A DNA stretch of 64,000 bases from Aureliella helgolandensis (lineage in GTDB: Bacteria > Planctomycetota > Planctomycetia > Pirellulales > Pirellulaceae). Both the position numbers and the translations under genes were made by a program. Below are positions 43,501-52,324 of this stretch, piece after piece. The DNA is taken from contig NZ_CP036298.1 of assembly GCF_007752135.1 (NCBI RefSeq), forward strand, positions 3,038,001 to 3,102,000, read 5' to 3'. The notes under the pieces are model-generated. The model was not told the origin of the DNA. It was given only the letters and a program-made list of their open reading frames with translations, and made no database searches. Position 1 is the first letter of the stretch. Every line of letters starts with the position of its first letter.

Positions 43501-43668
43501 GCCACCCAAGAGCAGGTCTTCACGATTCCCACGGAAGATGTGATCGAACGCAAAAAATCGAATGCATCGACGATGCCAGAAGGGCTGCTGTCGCAATTAT
43601 CCCCTACGCAAATCCGCGATCTCTTTGCCTATTTGCAAAGCAAGATGCAAGTCCCGCTTCAGCCGTAG
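40579..43668 (+). CDS. Exported PVC-type CxxCH heme-binding protein with propeller and HEAT-like repeats
   Basis: A 1029-residue secreted protein. After a signal peptide (cleavage near SVAQ, residue 28) comes a beta-propeller dehydrogenase-like domain (about 55-430) with LPDGFTASLFAAEP, GRVWVAENYTYAE and NLNDRVVVHEDVDGDG. Next is a HEAT-like helical region (about 435-860) and a C-terminal cytochrome c domain with CIACHQLFGAGG (Cys-x-x-Cys-His). This matches the planctomycete/verrucomicrobial N-terminal family TIGR02604 and the heme domain TIGR02603. It probably oxidises sugars or similar compounds outside the cytoplasm; the substrate is unknown. I chose the ATG at 40579, just before the signal peptide. 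Confidence 0.92.
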   Translation: MARNCIRTVVVYLLALVGWLAPGQSVAQVPFPEIYNSEPSTEEPISPEAALAALSLPDGFTASLFAAEPQVQNPIATCVDGRGRVWVAENYTYAERSQRFDLNLNDRVVVHEDVDGDGVADSRVVFTDSVQMLTGIVVGRGGVWLMCPPQLLFVPDANDDLLPDGVPQVVLDGFHVARENYHNFANGLSWGPDGWLYGRCGASCPGELGIPGCLDADRIPIRGGIWRYHPQRHLVEALTQGTTNPWGHDWNALGELFFINTVNGHLWHMIPGAHYVRPHTLDANPYSYELIDMHADHWHFDTGKSWTQSRDGAANDFGGGHAHIGMLIYQEETWPQEFQGDLFTINMHGRRWNREHLQPQGSGYVGVHAADMVFSDDPWFRGMDIKSLPDGNVLLIDWSDTGECHDSTGVHRTSGRIFKISHESPEGAQALGPRLEPLRSSDLLELARLQVEGSTWQSRRARERTAYLQTQASDSPAATEYLRQVLRDSGSASVEARLRALWGLQTLDAMDGSELRQLLGDDAPAIRVWAIRLLTDLWPLDTSLGERPARQDAEIEESMLEMLSDMARRETAAEVRLALASTLQRLPLERRAALASNLVRHVADAGDHNLPLMVWYGLMPLGDEHLGALLEVLRACEWPTTRRLIARRIAEQAETAPQVFEQLIALAAEKDSHFQADIVAGVGQGVAGRRQVTAPKSWQLLSKQLQGEAGPDLRSQVQNLNILFGDGRTIGELKSIVADRKADLALRKTALQTLVDARAEGIVELTLGLLNERFLNSVAAQALARETSDEVGDALVKAYGRFHPSERSGLISILSSRPAWSHALLEAVADGAVDRTEISPFQARQIAGHGDPALDAQLLQVWGQVRVSSAEKQQLIAQLKQQLTNKVLAEGDKQAGRALFEKSCIACHQLFGAGGQIGPDLTGAQRSNLDFLLENIIDPSAVVTTEFRATLLMLEDGRVLTGLLTNQSENSLTLATQEQVFTIPTEDVIERKKSNASTMPEGLLSQLSPTQIRDLFAYLQSKMQVPLQP

Positions 43669-43804
43669 AATAGCTGGAACGCTCGCAGGAAATTCTGCCG
43701 GGTTGGGAGGTCCCTGACGCCCCAACTGTGTCAAGAGGATAGCGATTGGTGAAAAGGGACGGTAAGTTGTCAGGGCTGCACTTACCTCAAAGGACTCCAG
43801 GTTG

Positions 43805-46606
43805 ATGTTTAATCGCGACGACGGAAAAAAATTGATACTGCTCGACGGTATGGCCTTGGCCTATCGCGCTCACTTTGCGTTGGTGCGAAGTCCACGTTTT
43901 ACCTCCGGCGGACTCTGCACTTCGGCGGTATTTGGGATCCTAAATACGTTGATGGATATCATCAAACGTGAAGATCCGACGCACCTTGCCGCCGCATTCG
44001 ATACCTCCGAGCCGACGGCACGGCATATCGCTTTCCCTGAATACAAGGCTCAACGCGATGCCATGCCCGAGGATATCGCTATCCAATTGCCCTACATCGA
44101 TCGCTTGATGGATGCGTTCAACATCACCACCATCCGCATACCGGGTTACGAGGCGGATGACATCATCGGCACATTGGCCTACCAAGCATCCAGTTGTGAT
44201 TTCGAGACGTTGATGGTCACTCCTGACAAGGATTACGACCAATTGGTGAGTGACTCGGTCAAGGTTTTGAAGCCTGGCCGCAAGGGAGGGGAGGTCGAGC
44301 TTCTGGGGGTGCCAGAGGTTCTGGAAAAGTGGGGGATTGAGCGAGTCGAGCAAGTGATCGATGTGCTGGGACTGATGGGCGACGCCAGCGACAACATTCC
44401 AGGAGTACCTGGGATTGGTCCGAAAACTGCTCAGAAACTCATTGCGCAATTTGGTTCCGTTGAAGAGTTGCTGGCGCGTGAGGCCGAACTCAAAGGCAAG
44501 CAAAGAGAGCGGATTCAACAAAATCACGAGCAAGCTCTACTCTCCAAGAAACTGGTAACGATTCGGCTCGATGTTCCGCACGATATCAAACTGGGCGCCC
44601 TTCAGTGGGAATCGTTTGACAAGAAGAAGCTGCAAGCACTGTTGCAAGAATTGGAGTTCGACACGATCGGTAAGCGATTGTTTGGTAAGTCGTTCTCCTC
44701 TGCGGCATCTCGCGCGACGGTGGTGCGGGAAAAGCGGGAGAAGGAGATACAGGCCACTCTGTTTGATGCCGAGTTTGATGCGGACGAGAACGCACAAACA
44801 CTCGAGGATATCCAGCGCAGCTATCAGGTAGTGAGAACTCAAGCCGAACGTGAAAACTTGGTCAAACAGCTGTTGGCTACTCCGGAATTCTGTTTCGACC
44901 TGGAAACGACCAGCCTGGATCCTCGCACTGCTGAGCCACTGGGGATTGCCTTTTCCTGCAAGAAGCATGAGGCGTTTTATGTGGTCTGTCCGCAGGATCC
45001 CGACGAGCTGAAGCAGGTGTTCGACGACCTTCAGCCAGTCTTTTCCAACGAGTCGATTTGCAAGGTAGGGCACAATCTCAAGTATGATTTGTCGGTCTTG
45101 AGATGGCAGGGAGTGTCGGTGCAGGGACCGTTCTTGGATACCATGCTGGCACATTCCATGAAAGAGCCTGAGATGACTCACGGCCTCGACTACTTGGCCA
45201 AGCTCTATCTCAACTACCAACCGGTCTCCATCACCGAGCTAATTGGCCCCAAGGGAGAAGGGCAGTTGAGTCTGCGCGATGTACCGGTGGAACGGGTGGC
45301 TGAGTACGCTTGTGAAGACGCCGATGTGACGTTGCAAGTTGCCAACGTTTTAAAACCTGATATCGAAGAGCGTGGAGTCAGTCAGGTCTGCTATGAAGTG
45401 GAATGTCCGCTGCTGCCCGTCTTGGTAGACATGGAATATGAAGGAATTCGTTTGGATGTGAAATCCTTGCGAGAGTATTCCAAACGCTTGCAGGGAGAGA
45501 TCGATGAGCTCCGAGATGCCATTTACGCAGGGGCAGGGCATGAATTCAACATCGATTCTCCCAAGCAGTTGGGCGTTGTGTTGTACGAAGAGTTGGAGTT
45601 GGATTTAAATCCGAAGAAGACCGCGACGGGGCAGTATTCTACCCGAGAGTCGGAACTAGAACGCATGCAGGGGCGGCATCCCATCGTGAGCGATATTCTG
45701 CAGTACCGCAATGCGGTCAAATTGAAGAGCGTGTATGTCGACCAATTGCCTGCAGCAGTACAACCCAAGACCGGCCACGTACATACCCATTACAGCCAGG
45801 CTTGGACGGCAACGGGACGCATCCAGTCGAAGGACCCCAATTTACAGACACTTCCCATTCGCAAGCAACGGGGACGCGAGATACGGGCGGCGTTCGTAGC
45901 TCGCAGCGACGAATTTCGCATTCTGTCGGCGGACTACTCTCAAATCGAATTGCGCGTGATGGCTGACTTGAGTGGCGATCCTGCCATGATCGAAGCCTTC
46001 CGTGGCGATCAAGACATTCATGCGATTACCGCTGCAAAGGTTTACAAGGTAGCGGAAAGCGAAGTCACTCGCGAAATGCGTGATAAGGCCAAGACCGTAA
46101 ATTTTGGCATCATCTATGGAATCTCTGGATTCGGTTTGCAGCAGAGGCTGAATATACCTCGTGGTGAAGCCAATGAGCTGATCGCGAACTATTTCGAGAA
46201 ATATCCAGGCGTCCAAGACTATATTGATCGTACGATTGCATTTGCGCGGGAGCACGGATTCGTGCAAACACAGACTGGACGCCGTCGCTACCTCCGGGAT
46301 ATCAACTCTCGCAATAAGTCGATGGTGAGTGCCGCGGAGCGTTTGGCAATGAACAGTCCCATTCAAGGGACAGCAGCGGATATACTGAAGCTGGCAATGA
46401 TCCGCGTTGCCAAAGCACTGCGCCACGGGGGCTTTCAAACGAAAATGCTACTGACCGTCCACGATGAGATTGTTTTTGACTTGCACCAATCTGAAATCGA
46501 TACGGTAGTGCCGGTAATTCGTGAATGCATGATGGGGGCATTGGAGATGTCGGTGCCACTCAAAGTCGAGACAGGCATCGGCAATAACTGGTTGGAGGCA
46601 CATTAG
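43805..46606 (+). CDS. polA: DNA polymerase I
   Basis: A 933-residue PolA with all three domains. The 5' nuclease is at about 1-310 (PGYEADDIIG, TPDKDYDQLV, GDASDNIPGVPGIG). The 3'-5' exonuclease is at about 335-530, with its acidic residues present in FCFDLETTSLDP, GHNLKYDLSVL and YACEDADVTL, so proofreading looks intact. The polymerase (540-933) shows DYSQIELRVMADLSGD, KAKTVNFGIIYG and VHDEIVFD. It replaces RNA primers and fills repair gaps. The ATG at 43805 follows a TTG in frame. Its stop codon overlaps the start of the next gene by one base. Confidence 0.97.
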   Translation: MFNRDDGKKLILLDGMALAYRAHFALVRSPRFTSGGLCTSAVFGILNTLMDIIKREDPTHLAAAFDTSEPTARHIAFPEYKAQRDAMPEDIAIQLPYIDRLMDAFNITTIRIPGYEADDIIGTLAYQASSCDFETLMVTPDKDYDQLVSDSVKVLKPGRKGGEVELLGVPEVLEKWGIERVEQVIDVLGLMGDASDNIPGVPGIGPKTAQKLIAQFGSVEELLAREAELKGKQRERIQQNHEQALLSKKLVTIRLDVPHDIKLGALQWESFDKKKLQALLQELEFDTIGKRLFGKSFSSAASRATVVREKREKEIQATLFDAEFDADENAQTLEDIQRSYQVVRTQAERENLVKQLLATPEFCFDLETTSLDPRTAEPLGIAFSCKKHEAFYVVCPQDPDELKQVFDDLQPVFSNESICKVGHNLKYDLSVLRWQGVSVQGPFLDTMLAHSMKEPEMTHGLDYLAKLYLNYQPVSITELIGPKGEGQLSLRDVPVERVAEYACEDADVTLQVANVLKPDIEERGVSQVCYEVECPLLPVLVDMEYEGIRLDVKSLREYSKRLQGEIDELRDAIYAGAGHEFNIDSPKQLGVVLYEELELDLNPKKTATGQYSTRESELERMQGRHPIVSDILQYRNAVKLKSVYVDQLPAAVQPKTGHVHTHYSQAWTATGRIQSKDPNLQTLPIRKQRGREIRAAFVARSDEFRILSADYSQIELRVMADLSGDPAMIEAFRGDQDIHAITAAKVYKVAESEVTREMRDKAKTVNFGIIYGISGFGLQQRLNIPRGEANELIANYFEKYPGVQDYIDRTIAFAREHGFVQTQTGRRRYLRDINSRNKSMVSAAERLAMNSPIQGTAADILKLAMIRVAKALRHGGFQTKMLLTVHDEIVFDLHQSEIDTVVPVIRECMMGALEMSVPLKVETGIGNNWLEAH

Positions 46607-49398
46607 TGCAACGCGATCTGCCATTCGTTCATGATGTATGCAGCCAGCCTGGAAATGGCTGCGCATTCTGGTGGCGCTGTCTGTCGCTCATCTGCTTGCT
46701 CTTTGCAACAGGTTGCAGTGGCTGTCGCCCCGAGAGTGAGAGGCTGACCCGCGAAGAGATTGAGAAACGCTCGCGCGAGAGTCAAGAAAAACGAGAGGCA
46801 ATCGTCGCATCGGAACTGGTATCGCTGCCGGCAGACAGCGATTCAAGACTGTTGTTCGCTAAGCCTGGACATTGGTTCGAAACCCGTCAAGAATTCAAAT
46901 CCAATCGAGAGGATTTGCAAATTTTAGCCGTGGGGAGTGTAGGGCGTGGCGATCGCGTGACTCCACTGCCCGGCACCAATATCCTCAACGAGTTCACGCG
47001 ACGCACCAGCCTGCCGAAAGGGCAAACCAAATCGGTCGACCTCCAGTACTTTGTACCCTATTCCGCCATCGTGGAGCCGGAGGATTGGGCTCAGCCGGTT
47101 TCCAACCAGTTGACCTTCCGCACGGAGTTGCTCTCGTGGCCGCTGCTGACTCCGCTCACCGAACGCATTCCTAAGCCGGCAAATGAACTGAAGGCCCATG
47201 AGTTTCAGCTACTAGTCCTGTCTCCCGAAGCGTTAGCTTATGACTTCCTAGGTAGCCTCGATGCCGTCTTTTGGCGCAACGACGACTCGATGGCGGATGA
47301 GCGGATACGCAGCTATCATGTGCGGTTGGTAAAGCCTGTCAAAAATCAATACTCGCTGCCACGTAGCATGCTGACGATGACCTCCATCGCAGTCGTCGTT
47401 TGGGACGATGTCGCCGCTGAAGACGTGTCGCGTGAACAACAGCAAGCGCTGATTGATTGGGTGCATTGGGGCGGCCAGTTAGTGGTTAGTGGCCCGAGTA
47501 GTTGGACGCGTCTGCAGAATTCTTTTCTGTCTCCCTATTTACCTGCAGATAGCGCTGATTCCACGCTCTTGGAAACCGCCGATTTTGTTGAGCTTTCGGC
47601 GCACTGGGAGGTTGAGGATCGATCGCACCCCAAAATTCGTGAATCACTCGTTGTTCAGGGGGCGGCGATCGCGGGTCTCAATCTTAAACTGAACACAGAT
47701 GGTGCGTGGCTGCCAGGTACTGGGCACCTCGTGGCGGAGAGGCAAGTGGGCCGTGGCCGAGTCGTGTTGACGGCATTTCCACTACGTGAGACTCGCATCA
47801 ATCGCTGGAATTATTTTTCGAGCTTTCTCTCTAGCGGACTGCTGAGGAGGGCCTCGCGCGCATTCACCCAGTATGACGCCAATCAATCCTTGGCCCAGAT
47901 GTGGGCAGGACCGTTCAAGGGCGCGGAGCGCGATCCTCGCATGCACTCCAATTTCAGAATTCTTTCACGCGACCTGCCGCTGTCAGCAAACACCGTCCAG
48001 GAATTGGGAGAAACCAGGCTAGGGGAGCTGGGAACGTCCCTTGTAGGAACAACGAGATCCGGATCGGCATTGAACACACCTGGCAGTACTCAGCCGGGAG
48101 ATGCGGCAGCAGTTCAGGGACAGGGGAACTCCGGACGGACCGTCAAACCGTCATTTGCGGGTGACGCCTCAGCGGTTGCCGAAGAGCATTCAGCATCCCC
48201 GATGGTTGATGAAGCGATGCGCTGGGGGGGCGGCGGCGCAGCCTGGAATGATTTCTCCGGCTTGTCGCACTCTGCGTTGACGGCGCTGCGCTCGGCCGCA
48301 GGAATTGTGCTCCCGACACGCACGACAATTCTCTACCTCTTGGCCGGTTACTTATTCTGCTTAGTGCCGGTGAACTGGCTGCTGTTTCGTTTGATGGGAC
48401 GCTTGGAATATGCTTGGCTGGCTGCCCCCATCTTAGCGCTGGTGGGCGTGGTGGTGGTTACCAGTGTCGCCCGGTTGGATATCGGGTTTGCCCGTCGCAC
48501 TACCGAGATCTCGGTTTTGGAACTGCATGGCAGCTATCCTCGTGGGCACCTGACCCAATACGTGGCGTTGTATACTTCCCTGTCCACAAACTATGCGGTC
48601 GAATTGCCCGAGAATGGGAGCGTGGCTTTACCAAGTTCTGATGTTTCTCGAACAGACCGTCGTGCCGTGGACAAGATTCGAAATCTACGCACCAACTATG
48701 GACGCTCCGCTGGGGTGACACTCGAACCGTTAACGGTCTACTCCAATTCGACGGAAATGCTGCACGCAGAGCAAATGATTGAGTTTTCCGGAGGGATTCA
48801 GCTAGGAAAACTTGCGACCGGTGAGGAGGGCCTGAAGAACCGATCGGAACTGAACTTGAAAAGCACTCAGGTCTTGCGGTGTGCCGACGATGGCACGATT
48901 CATTCCGCTTGGGTAGGCGCGTTAGAGTCCGGAGGCTCGGCGGCACTGCGTTTTCAAAGGTTGTCGTCAAGCAATGGAGTGGAGGGATTTGCTTCGCAGT
49001 GGATGGCCAATCCTATTACCAGTGCTCAGCAAATTTCCGCTAGAGCGAAGACCGACTCCGAGGCCGATTCGGAATTGTGGATTGGGGGAGTGATGCTTGA
49101 GGTTCTCCGCAAAACGCCGCTGATGCCAGGGCAGATGCGATTGATTGGATACACTGACGACCACCCGGGGCAACTCAATATCATTCCGACCCAAGATCAA
49201 CTTGATGTGCGGTGCGTCGTGGTTGCGCATCTGCTGCCACAGACGCTGGGGCCGATCACTCCCGATGCAAATATTCAGAGTCGACGCATTGCTGCTTTGG
49301 ACAAGTTGTTGCAAGACGACCCACCGAATTCAGAGGAACCGCAGGAGGATGTATCGCCATCGGTCGGAGAACCTGGCGGAGAACCTCCCAAAATCTAG
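46606..49398 (+). CDS. Large membrane-anchored protein translationally coupled to polA, function unknown
   Basis: A 930-residue protein starting at GTG 46606, whose G is the last base of the polA stop; GGAGG seven bases upstream supports this start. It has an N-terminal lipoprotein-like signal (LLFATGC, Cys37), a long extracytoplasmic part with ALIDWVHWGGQLVVSGPSSW (glutamine-amidotransferase-like fold), a Gly/Ser-rich segment (about 480-545), two membrane spans (about 574-594 and 602-622) and a beta-rich tail. I do not recognise the family. The ABC ATPase follows 73 bases later, and a transport-linked role like GldG-type subunits is a guess. Confidence 0.7.
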   Translation: MQRDLPFVHDVCSQPGNGCAFWWRCLSLICLLFATGCSGCRPESERLTREEIEKRSRESQEKREAIVASELVSLPADSDSRLLFAKPGHWFETRQEFKSNREDLQILAVGSVGRGDRVTPLPGTNILNEFTRRTSLPKGQTKSVDLQYFVPYSAIVEPEDWAQPVSNQLTFRTELLSWPLLTPLTERIPKPANELKAHEFQLLVLSPEALAYDFLGSLDAVFWRNDDSMADERIRSYHVRLVKPVKNQYSLPRSMLTMTSIAVVVWDDVAAEDVSREQQQALIDWVHWGGQLVVSGPSSWTRLQNSFLSPYLPADSADSTLLETADFVELSAHWEVEDRSHPKIRESLVVQGAAIAGLNLKLNTDGAWLPGTGHLVAERQVGRGRVVLTAFPLRETRINRWNYFSSFLSSGLLRRASRAFTQYDANQSLAQMWAGPFKGAERDPRMHSNFRILSRDLPLSANTVQELGETRLGELGTSLVGTTRSGSALNTPGSTQPGDAAAVQGQGNSGRTVKPSFAGDASAVAEEHSASPMVDEAMRWGGGGAAWNDFSGLSHSALTALRSAAGIVLPTRTTILYLLAGYLFCLVPVNWLLFRLMGRLEYAWLAAPILALVGVVVVTSVARLDIGFARRTTEISVLELHGSYPRGHLTQYVALYTSLSTNYAVELPENGSVALPSSDVSRTDRRAVDKIRNLRTNYGRSAGVTLEPLTVYSNSTEMLHAEQMIEFSGGIQLGKLATGEEGLKNRSELNLKSTQVLRCADDGTIHSAWVGALESGGSAALRFQRLSSSNGVEGFASQWMANPITSAQQISARAKTDSEADSELWIGGVMLEVLRKTPLMPGQMRLIGYTDDHPGQLNIIPTQDQLDVRCVVVAHLLPQTLGPITPDANIQSRRIAALDKLLQDDPPNSEEPQEDVSPSVGEPGGEPPKI

Positions 49399-49471
49399 CT
49401 CCAACGCTCTTGCGCTTCCTGGCCCTCGATCCTTCGCTCCCGTTCCTAGAACTCCCCGCTTAAGCCGTTCC

Positions 49472-50398
49472 ATGATTGAAATCTCAGAGTTTGGAAAAGA
49501 CTATGGCGAATTTACAGCCGTGGGCTCCATATCGCTTAAGATCGAAGCGGGAGAGATGTTTGGGTTCATTGGCCCCAACGGAGCTGGAAAAAGCACGACC
49601 ATTCGCTACTTGGCAACCCTACTGAAGGCGACGCGGGGGGATGCCACGGTCAACGGATACAGCGTCAACAAAGATCCGATGAATGTCCGCCGCAGTATCG
49701 GCTACATGCCCGACGACTTTGGTGTCTACGACGGAATGAAGGTTTGGGAGTTTCTCGATTTTTTTGCGGTGGCCTACAAGATCGGTCGCTCCCAACGCAA
49801 GCAAGTCATTATGGACGTGCTGGAACTGTTGGATCTAGGGCACAAACGGGACGATTTCGTCAACGGGTTGTCGCGAGGAATGAAGCAGAGGTTATGCCTA
49901 GCCAAGACGCTGGTGCATGATCCCCCCGTGTTGATTCTCGACGAGCCTACGAGCGGATTGGATCCACGCGCACGAATCGAGGTCAAGGCACTACTCAAAG
50001 AGCTGCGTCGGATGGGAAAGACGGTTTTGATCAGCAGCCACATTTTGTCGGAGCTGGCCGACTGTTGCTCTTCAATTGGAATTATTGAGCGTGGTGAATT
50101 GCTGATGAGTGGTCCGATCGACAATGTGTATCGTCAGATTCGCCGAAATCGGCAAGTGGACATTCGTTTCAATGGGCAGGTGGAAGCTGGGGTTTCCATT
50201 CTGCGTTCGTGCCCCGAGCTACGCGACATCGAAATCTTGGGAGATCGAGTACTCGTTGAACTTGAAGCGGACGATCAGCAATTAGCGGAAATCATGAATC
50301 GCCTAGTCCAAGGAGGAGTTTCAATGCGGAGCTTTAATGACAAAGAGCCGACATTGGAAGACGTGTTCATGATGGTGACCAAGGGGCTCGTTACCTAA
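49472..50398 (+). CDS. ABC transporter ATP-binding protein
   Basis: A 308-residue ATPase. Walker A is GPNGAGKST, the signature is NGLSRGMKQRL, Walker B is VLILDEPTSGLDP and the switch is LISSHIL. The Q-loop reads GYMPDDFGVYDGM, a variant with Pro-Asp-Asp. It belongs to the DrrA/CcmA-type exporters with a C-terminal extra domain (from about 220). The frame extends upstream to 49145, but that part overlaps the previous gene; the ATG at 49472 is right for the family. No permease gene follows: the next gene is convergent, with overlapping stops. The 930-residue membrane protein upstream may be its partner. Confidence 0.92.
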   Translation: MIEISEFGKDYGEFTAVGSISLKIEAGEMFGFIGPNGAGKSTTIRYLATLLKATRGDATVNGYSVNKDPMNVRRSIGYMPDDFGVYDGMKVWEFLDFFAVAYKIGRSQRKQVIMDVLELLDLGHKRDDFVNGLSRGMKQRLCLAKTLVHDPPVLILDEPTSGLDPRARIEVKALLKELRRMGKTVLISSHILSELADCCSSIGIIERGELLMSGPIDNVYRQIRRNRQVDIRFNGQVEAGVSILRSCPELRDIEILGDRVLVELEADDQQLAEIMNRLVQGGVSMRSFNDKEPTLEDVFMMVTKGLVT

Positions 50399-52080
50399 TT
50401 CTTGTCATCCGCCGGAATGGAGGGCGATTCCGTCGTCGACTCGGCTGCCGCAGCTTCTGCATTCGATGCGGGCTGTGGCGGCTCGGCTGCCGCAGCCGCA
50501 TTGAGCTTGCGGACGACGTCTTCGTGACTCTTCGCCATCTGTGGATTGTTCTCGCGACGATAAAGCTCAGCGGCGCGACGGTGGTAGTCCACCACGGTCG
50601 GAGCAATCTCGATAGCGTTCTCAAACGCAGTGATTGCCTTTTGATTGCGTTCTAGGCGAGTAAGAATAATACCCATTGTGTCGTAGTATTCTGCCCGCGG
50701 GGTTTTCGCTGCAGCGGCGGAAATAACGCACCGCTGTGCGTAGTCCAGCGCCTCCTCCAGACGGTCTGCCGATGGGCTGGCTGCCAAGGAGTAAGCTAGG
50801 TTATTCAGAGACTGTGGTTGCGTAGGTAGGCGAATGACAACTTGTTCCAAGTGCGGGATGGCCTGCTCGTAATCTTCGCGTTTTAAGAAGGTTTCAGCTA
50901 GCCAGGCATGGGTGGCAACGGTGGCCTTGCCTTCAGCCAAGAAGGTTCGGAGCATGGCCACCATCTCATTGTTGACCTTCGAACCCCCGCTTCCCGCCAG
51001 CTGAGCGATCTCCTCTGGAACACGAGGGTTGGTGGGATCCAGGCGCATGGCGCGGTCCAGGTAACCGATTTGAGCTTGAGATTTTCCGTCGCTGGTTCCC
51101 ACGACGCTCATGCGAAACTTGAGTCGATAGACCTCCGATTGGGCTCGTTGAATATCGGGTGTAACTTCGAATTCGAGGTTCTGGGGGAAGAGCAGACGTT
51201 CGGCTTCATCCAATCTCTTTTGCTCGGCTAAAAATTGGGCGAGAGTCAAGCGTGCAACCGCATCCTTAGGATCGTCTTGGAGCACTTGCCGCAAGTGCTC
51301 TTCGGCTGTCTTGCCAGCTTGTTCCGCCACGCGAGGATTTCCCAAGGCGGATGCCAAGCGGGCCAAATTGACATTCTGACTTGGATCGCGTTCGGCTGCA
51401 GTGGCCATAAAGCTGAGTGCTTCGTTGCCGCGTCCTAGATCGGCGAACAGCTTGGCTGCGATTAACAGAAGACGGACTGGCATCCGCTCCCATCGCGCAC
51501 CCTGAGTGAGGTGATGGAGCAGGATTGGCAAATTCTGTTCTGGAGCTCTCTGAACTTTCGGAAAGAAAATCTCCGACAAAACGGCATGGGCTGGAGCATA
51601 GCCACCGGGGCCGCTATTGGGGGCAATCTTAACCAGCATTCTTTCTGCTTGGGCGACGGCACCTCGTTGAGCCATTGTCGCACCGATCACAAACTGGGCG
51701 CGATCGGTGGGTGAAAGCAGTTGAGCACGGCGGAAGAGTACGTCTGCGAACGGCGATACCTCAGCGCGTTTCTCGCTTTCCGCTGCTTCATCGGTGGTGG
51801 AGGGCTCCTCTACGGAGGATTCTGCTTCTGGCGTATTCGACGGCACTGCTGGCGCCCAGGCTTGTTCCCAGCCCGCGATCTCTTCGTCCCCCAGCTCCAT
51901 GTACCATTGGGCTAGAGCGCGATGATCACCGCGAGATGCGATGAACACAAAACTGATACCGGCGATCAATAAGTACACTGGCCACATGACCAGTAACACC
52001 TTCTTCCATTCGCGGGTGATAATCCAATCGTAGACAAACCCTGCGATAGACACTGGCCAGCGAAACGGATCGAGTTGCAT
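50395..52080 (-). CDS. Membrane-anchored TPR-repeat protein
   Basis: A 561-residue protein with one membrane span (about 28-50, VLLVMWPVYLLIAGISFVFI), a Glu/Ser-rich linker (about 75-105) and tetratricopeptide repeats over most of the rest (for example RLTLAQFLAEQKRLDEAERL, QSLNNLAYSLA and YDTMGIILTRLERNQKAITA). The C-terminus is Ala/Pro/Glu-rich and low in complexity. Probably a scaffold facing the periplasm or paryphoplasm. I chose the ATG at 52080; the frame extends to 52194 without a family-like start. Its stop codon overlaps that of the ABC gene tail-to-tail. Confidence 0.85.
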   Translation of the reverse strand: MQLDPFRWPVSIAGFVYDWIITREWKKVLLVMWPVYLLIAGISFVFIASRGDHRALAQWYMELGDEEIAGWEQAWAPAVPSNTPEAESSVEEPSTTDEAAESEKRAEVSPFADVLFRRAQLLSPTDRAQFVIGATMAQRGAVAQAERMLVKIAPNSGPGGYAPAHAVLSEIFFPKVQRAPEQNLPILLHHLTQGARWERMPVRLLLIAAKLFADLGRGNEALSFMATAAERDPSQNVNLARLASALGNPRVAEQAGKTAEEHLRQVLQDDPKDAVARLTLAQFLAEQKRLDEAERLLFPQNLEFEVTPDIQRAQSEVYRLKFRMSVVGTSDGKSQAQIGYLDRAMRLDPTNPRVPEEIAQLAGSGGSKVNNEMVAMLRTFLAEGKATVATHAWLAETFLKREDYEQAIPHLEQVVIRLPTQPQSLNNLAYSLAASPSADRLEEALDYAQRCVISAAAAKTPRAEYYDTMGIILTRLERNQKAITAFENAIEIAPTVVDYHRRAAELYRRENNPQMAKSHEDVVRKLNAAAAAEPPQPASNAEAAAAESTTESPSIPADDKN

Positions 52081-52324
52081 GGTAGGTTCCGAGCTGGATA
52101 TGCACAATAAGCTGCTTAAAACAAGAAACGGCGGCCCATTGGGGGCAAGTGGGCCAGAGCCTATAATAATAGCTGAAAAGCGATTTGTGGCCACAACCGC
52201 TAGAAGTAGGCTGCAGTCCTCCTACTCCCCCTTTGGTTTCTGGTGATTGTTCCAATTCGATCGATTATGCTGATTGGGTATCGTGCTAAGGATGATAGTT
52301 CAGTAGCTTGGGAGAGAGTCCGCC

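Follow-up and report, generated by a model that had tools for sequence, protein, structure and literature searches.

A probable three-part GldA/F/G-like ABC-2 system with dispersed genes, including an ABC ATPase encoded near polA, in Aureliella helgolandensis

We analysed a stretch of 64,000 nucleotides from Aureliella helgolandensis (the window), in which polA is followed on the plus strand by the gene for an exported membrane protein of 930 amino acids, P930 (46606..49398), and by the gene for an ATP-binding cassette (ABC) ATPase of 308 amino acids (49472..50398). An earlier note on this DNA had described the ATPase as lacking a permease. We find that an ABC-2 permease ortholog is encoded far away in the same genome (contig C1 of the window genome G000, positions 8074939-8076579, minus strand), and that its presence tracks that of the ATPase in 198 genomes of the class. 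P930, the ATPase and the relocated permease probably constitute one three-part, GldA/F/G-like ABC-2 complex, as suggested by the gene content, the gene order in relatives, the co-occurrence of the genes and the likely fold of the central domain of P930; the physical assembly, the topology and the direction of transport are inferred. P930 is most likely an accessory part of the complex and not a replacement channel. An apparently permease-less ABC system would thus be resolved, the genes of one probable complex being scattered over the chromosome in the window family, and gene neighbourhoods alone therefore give false 'orphan' ATPases. The result would also define an ABC-2 system of planctomycetes that consists of three parts, one of them a large accessory subunit that is exported.

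The relocated permease and its co-occurrence with the ATPase

When the operon permease of another genome of the same order (G369) was used as a query, one clear ortholog was found in the window genome, 48% identical over the full length (E 2.5e-147), and the next match was at 8.8e-12. This protein matches PF12679 with 92.1 bits (cut-off 27.2) and has two ABC-2 stretches. Its gene is located 4.99 Mb from that of the ATPase or, should the 8.44-Mb contig be circular, 3.45 Mb in the opposite direction. It is flanked not by an ATPase gene but by a response-regulator-like gene and, downstream, by a gene for a 214-amino-acid protein, which at the loci examined was seen again in just 4 genomes. The observation in the earlier note that no ABC permease is found is correct locally but does not hold genome-wide. 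We infer that the relocated permease is cognate to the ATPase from the synteny seen in relatives and from co-occurrence.

Outside the window family 12 loci were examined, and at 10 of them the ATPase gene is followed by that of an ABC-2 permease (nine identified by tblastn and L058 by Pfam; at L054 the permease after the ATPase was found by tblastn). L056 has the ATPase only, and L050 has neither ATPase nor permease. The order P930, ATPase, ABC-2 permease is present in 9/9 intact clusters of the order and class (L211-L219) and also at L046 and L047. Within the window family, the three genes are still in a row in G422 (L152), and in G563 (L207) the permease gene is divergent and beside P930. 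Among class genomes having both genes, ATPase and permease are adjacent on the same strand in 43/45 outside the order, in 4/16 from other families of the order and in 0/22 from the window family. A quick tree of 82 ATPase rows, with several long branches, has the adjacent state on its outer branches and 5 changes, at least two of which are forced by well-supported branches. With the window left aside, the genes of P930 and the ATPase lie side by side in 42 of 50 family genomes; they are apart in G397, G401, G409, G432 and G446, and G274, G444 and G439 are cases at a contig end. The plain reading is that of an ancestral operon, the pieces of which were dispersed yet retained in the same genome.

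A natural fusion of P930 with the ATPase was considered for L053, the only one of 85 frames with an ATPase match, and was rejected: the upstream stretch looks out of frame, is arginine-rich and has no membrane span that would place the ATPase on the inside, and an ATG of its own is present for the ATPase. Long frames in G512, G571 and G464 proved on inspection not to be fusions.

Counted over 60 genomes of the family, P930 is present in 51 (the window included), the permease in 50 and an ATPase ortholog in 49, the ATPase of G400 being excluded as of paralog grade. All three genes occur together in 48 genomes, none in 9, and 3 genomes are discordant; in G274 and G444 the ATPase was not found and the P930 frames reach the contig end, and in G424 the permease was not found. 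The class provides 198 genomes, of which 83 have both ATPase and permease, 111 have neither and 4 are discordant (G274 and G537 with the permease alone, G479 and G590 with the ATPase alone). The threshold for the class ATPase (E up to 1.2e-103) was chosen after inspection of the list, in the gap from 1.2e-103 to 2.5e-100; at E 1e-118 the counts are 82 with both, 1 with ATPase only (G590) and 3 with permease only (G274, G449 and G537). The earlier note had named, as evidence against its own proposal, a permease gene elsewhere with strict co-occurrence, and this is what was found, with 4/198 genomes discordant. When 392 genomes from across the phylum were searched, with two candidates per genome scored, relatives of P930 were detected in at least 26.

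Local gene layout and architecture of P930

The polA gene (43802-46606, plus strand; PF00476, E 3.9e-153) ends in the sequence TAGTG (46604..46608), in which the stop codon TAG (46604-46606) and the GTG start codon of P930 overlap by one base at 46606. A ribosome-binding site, GGAGG (46594..46598), lies within the end of polA, 7 nucleotides upstream of the GTG. The whole open frame of P930, a single-copy gene in this genome, has only 936 amino acids and so there is no earlier start. The ATG of the ATPase gene (49472) is 73 bp past the P930 stop, and homologs align from this codon and not from the mechanically assigned TTG at 49145. A gene for a TPR protein (50395-52194, minus strand) is convergent to that of the ATPase. 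The layout described in the earlier note, with its shared base, good GGAGG, directly following ATPase and convergent next gene, is thus as seen in the sequence. Scans of 43600-50700 gave chance levels both of promoters (5 matches, 4.4 expected) and of terminators (4 matches, 6.6 expected).

Translation of P930 may be coupled to that of PolA in the present species, judging from the overlap. A search for conserved polA linkage, which the earlier note had proposed, showed that the linkage is not conserved. Of 84 P930 loci, 67 (at most 66 of them distinct) extend 2.5 kb or more upstream, and polA was upstream of P930 in 0/67, including two members of the window genus (L151 and L206). The overlap is seemingly particular to A. 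helgolandensis or its closest kin, and since the pairing is absent from two congeners, it does not point to a common function.

The ATPase is intact (PF00005, E 1.2e-30, 107.3 bits, cut-off 25; also DrrA1-3_C), carrying the Walker A motif GPNGAGKST as well as LSRGM and LDEP. It is of the DrrA/GldA type and scores under the cut-offs of both models.

The N terminus of P930 carries a signal (residues 1-37, 46606..46716, plus strand) whose lipobox-like ATGC ends at Cys37; it was recognised by hydropathy and is absent from the description in the earlier note; the GC of this site is found in 57/70 aligned rows, the window counted. The two mid-sequence membrane spans noticed earlier are confirmed as a near-invariant two-helix hairpin (residues 572-625, 48319..48480, plus strand), with hydropathy peaks between residues 567 and 630 and helices predicted by AlphaFold2 at 572-597 and 600-625. 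In the 70-row alignment the conserved blocks are residues 245-420 and, strongest, 541-660, and residues P570, Y582, N590, E601 and W604 around the hairpin are invariant (70/70 rows). Because a signal sequence stands in front and the short loop of the hairpin contains two basic residues, R595 and R599, the large parts of P930 are expected to be outside the cytoplasm.

The AlphaFold2 model of P930, built with 11 sequences, has a modest overall pLDDT (predicted local distance difference test) of 55, and the domain of residues 200-415 (47203..47850, plus strand) is mostly confident. Structure comparison with VIA assigned to this domain a GATase1-like fold, with Z scores of 16.4 (2gk3), 16.3 (3soz) and 15.5 (3rht, from Planctomyces limnophilus), in agreement with the glutamine-amidotransferase-like segment suggested earlier, although without a conserved catalytic cysteine. 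No cysteine column exceeds 23/70 rows in residues 195-424, and none is conserved in the 70 rows at the nucleophile elbow, which we assigned to residues 291-300; P930 is therefore probably not an amidotransferase. The match to the N-terminal domain of IFT52 (5fms) has a Z score of 11.9, about equal to that of several glycosidase domains of the same fold, and the GIFT likeness is therefore one at the fold level only. DUF4350 (PF14258) matches residues 274-392 weakly, at 20.2 bits and under the gathering cut-off of 30.4. The PF09822 and NCBIfam GldG models gave no match to P930 at E up to 1, where HMMER filters can drop weak matches, and the fold matches listed for P930 include no GldG structure, which excludes nothing. 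The description of P930 as GldG-like is thus upheld by the fold of the central domain and by the gene setting, but not by the GldG-type sequence models.

The C-terminal half modeled alone (390 amino acids, pLDDT 64) forms a beta-sandwich, at residues ~630-880 (48493..49245, plus strand), that has weak, consistent matches to the mu-homology domains of clathrin and COPI adaptors. Judging by their titles, the 50 listed VIA rows are adaptor and coat entries with mu-homology domains, with Z scores of 6.2-8.2; the best has a Z score of 8.2 with a root-mean-square deviation of 4.1 over 166 residues, and the note supplied with the tool states that Z scores of 7-8 are common without a true relative. 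With Foldseek the top four rows also belong to this family (E from 7.8e-4 to 4.2e-3, separated by a gap from the next row at 0.06), at TM scores of only 0.22-0.34. We regard this model-based likeness as a lead only. There is a small chance that in P930 a membrane hairpin links a GIFT-type domain, as in the ciliary protein IFT52, with a domain of true mu-homology topology, as in the adaptors of clathrin and COPI, within an ATP-driven planctomycete complex. If so, it would be a bacterial envelope machine made of modules otherwise paired in eukaryotic trafficking; to our knowledge, GIFT-type and mu-homology modules are otherwise known together only from there.

Proposed complex and alternative explanations

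In the proposed three-part complex, the binding and hydrolysis of ATP by a dimer of the ATPase would move the ABC-2 permease, which has its two halves in one chain. P930 would sit beside the permease via its conserved hairpin, and its GIFT/GATase-like and beta-sandwich domains, outside the cytoplasm, would receive cargo or pass on the ATP-driven motion. The ancestral gene order would have been P930, ATPase and permease; the permease gene would have moved away in most lineages within the window order, and a rearrangement in A. helgolandensis would have placed P930 behind polA.

Several observations weigh against such a complex. G590, a member of the window genus (98% complete, 820 contigs), encodes P930 (54%) as well as the ATPase (88%), but no cognate permease was found, even with a congener permease as the query, and G424 (72% complete, 1600 contigs) likewise has P930 and the ATPase with no permease found. 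G449 (L210) has ATPase and permease with no match to P930. Across the family, sequence identity is only about 30% for P930, far below the roughly 75% seen for the ATPase. In addition, presence follows clades, so that the co-occurrence counts are not independent events. The permease gap in G590 (L206) is either an assembly gap or a true loss.

Could P930 itself replace the permease, the ATPase acting on P930 alone, as the earlier note had thought possible? The frequent adjacency of the two genes in the family and the conserved membrane hairpin would suit this, but the ATPase co-occurs with a cognate permease, P930 crosses the membrane only twice, with a short intervening loop, and P930 and the ATPase are themselves parted in five family genomes; we consider the idea very improbable. 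Alternatively, since ATPases can be shared and PF12679 matches at 16 places in the window genome, the ATPase might serve another ABC-2 permease. One candidate is a GldF-GldG fusion of 990 amino acids (PF12679 and PF09822; C1:3144242-3147211), and another is the permease (C1:4963632-4965293) of a paralogous operon, L064 (G000:C1:4963632-4968932), which encodes an exported-looking protein of 864 amino acids, an ATPase, a two-half ABC-2 permease and then a HEAT-repeat protein. Each has its own neighbouring ATPase, that of the fusion being just upstream (about C1:3143491-3144180), some 55 kb downstream of the window ATPase. The fusion is present in 84/85 class genomes with the window ATPase and also in 63/113 without it, and its presence therefore does not follow that of the ATPase, in contrast to the relocated permease, which led us to reject the fusion as a partner. 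Only the relocated permease has a full-length match to the operon permease of relatives, and service to another permease is accordingly unlikely. The 864-amino-acid protein of L064 was also rejected as a relative of P930 (hhalign probability 0.7%). As side observations, a 713-amino-acid protein without a Pfam match is encoded downstream of the fusion (L241, G000:C1:~3143491-3149495), and two fusions of an ABC-2 permease with a CAAX-protease-like (Rce1) domain are encoded on the same contig at ~4.44 Mb (L032) and ~4.32 Mb (L033).

It is also conceivable that the ATPase and the relocated permease are an ordinary two-part exporter and that P930 is a co-regulated, physically separate envelope protein, in keeping with its much faster divergence, its separation from the ATPase in five family genomes and the ATPase-permease pair without a P930 match at L210. 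Against this, P930 is kept with the pair in 48/60 family genomes and lost with the pair in 9, and conservation within P930 peaks at the membrane hairpin, suggesting that the protein has a membrane-embedded partner; we judge this explanation unlikely. Finally, the one-base overlap and the good ribosome-binding site might reflect a real polA-linked function, in which P930 works with DNA polymerase I. With polA upstream at none of the 67 other loci, two congeners included, and with an export signal on P930, this has hardly any likelihood.

Comparison with known systems

According to PMC5682007, GldA, GldF and GldG are likely the components of an ABC transporter. The GldA-GldF-GldG system of gliding Bacteroidota and the planctomycete system both have a GldA-like ATPase, an ABC-2 permease and, as a third part, a large exported protein that is anchored in the membrane and has a GATase1/GIFT-like central domain, GIFT being a name that combines GldG and intraflagellar transport (PMC10191852). 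For the planctomycete system no connection with gliding was seen, though none was sought. P930 differs in having a mid-protein hairpin and a C-terminal beta-sandwich and in having no match to a GldG-type model. The ATPase has GldA (TIGR03522) as its second-best NCBIfam match but scores 228.5 bits, under the equivalog cut-off of 402.6, and the window genome has a separate GldF-GldG fusion. On these sequence scores the system is not assigned to the GldA/F/G family.

The weak match of residues 274-392 is shared ground with the DUF4350/arCOG01314 membrane proteins. Profile comparison has linked DUF4350 to GldG, with the proposal of a complex for secretion or membrane remodelling (PMC5898192). The same paper describes archaeal operons that carry genes for vWA proteins and MoxR-type ATPases, unlike the ABC ATPase and ABC-2 permease found here.

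The operon of the GldF-GldG fusion (L241) likewise combines an ATPase, an ABC-2 permease and a GldG-type domain (PF09822). There, however, permease and GldG domain are fused, the ATPase is 38% identical to the window ATPase over 234 amino acids, and the fusion is far wider in the class (147/198). The paralogous operon L064 has the same order of large protein, ATPase and two-half ABC-2 permease, but its genes are still together, its ATPase is 41% identical to that of the window, and profile comparison of its large protein with P930 gave no significant match. A literature search found no paper on the present planctomycete system under the terms tried. P930, the ATPase and the relocated permease apparently represent an uncharacterised, dispersed, GldA/F/G-like ABC-2 system of Planctomycetota.

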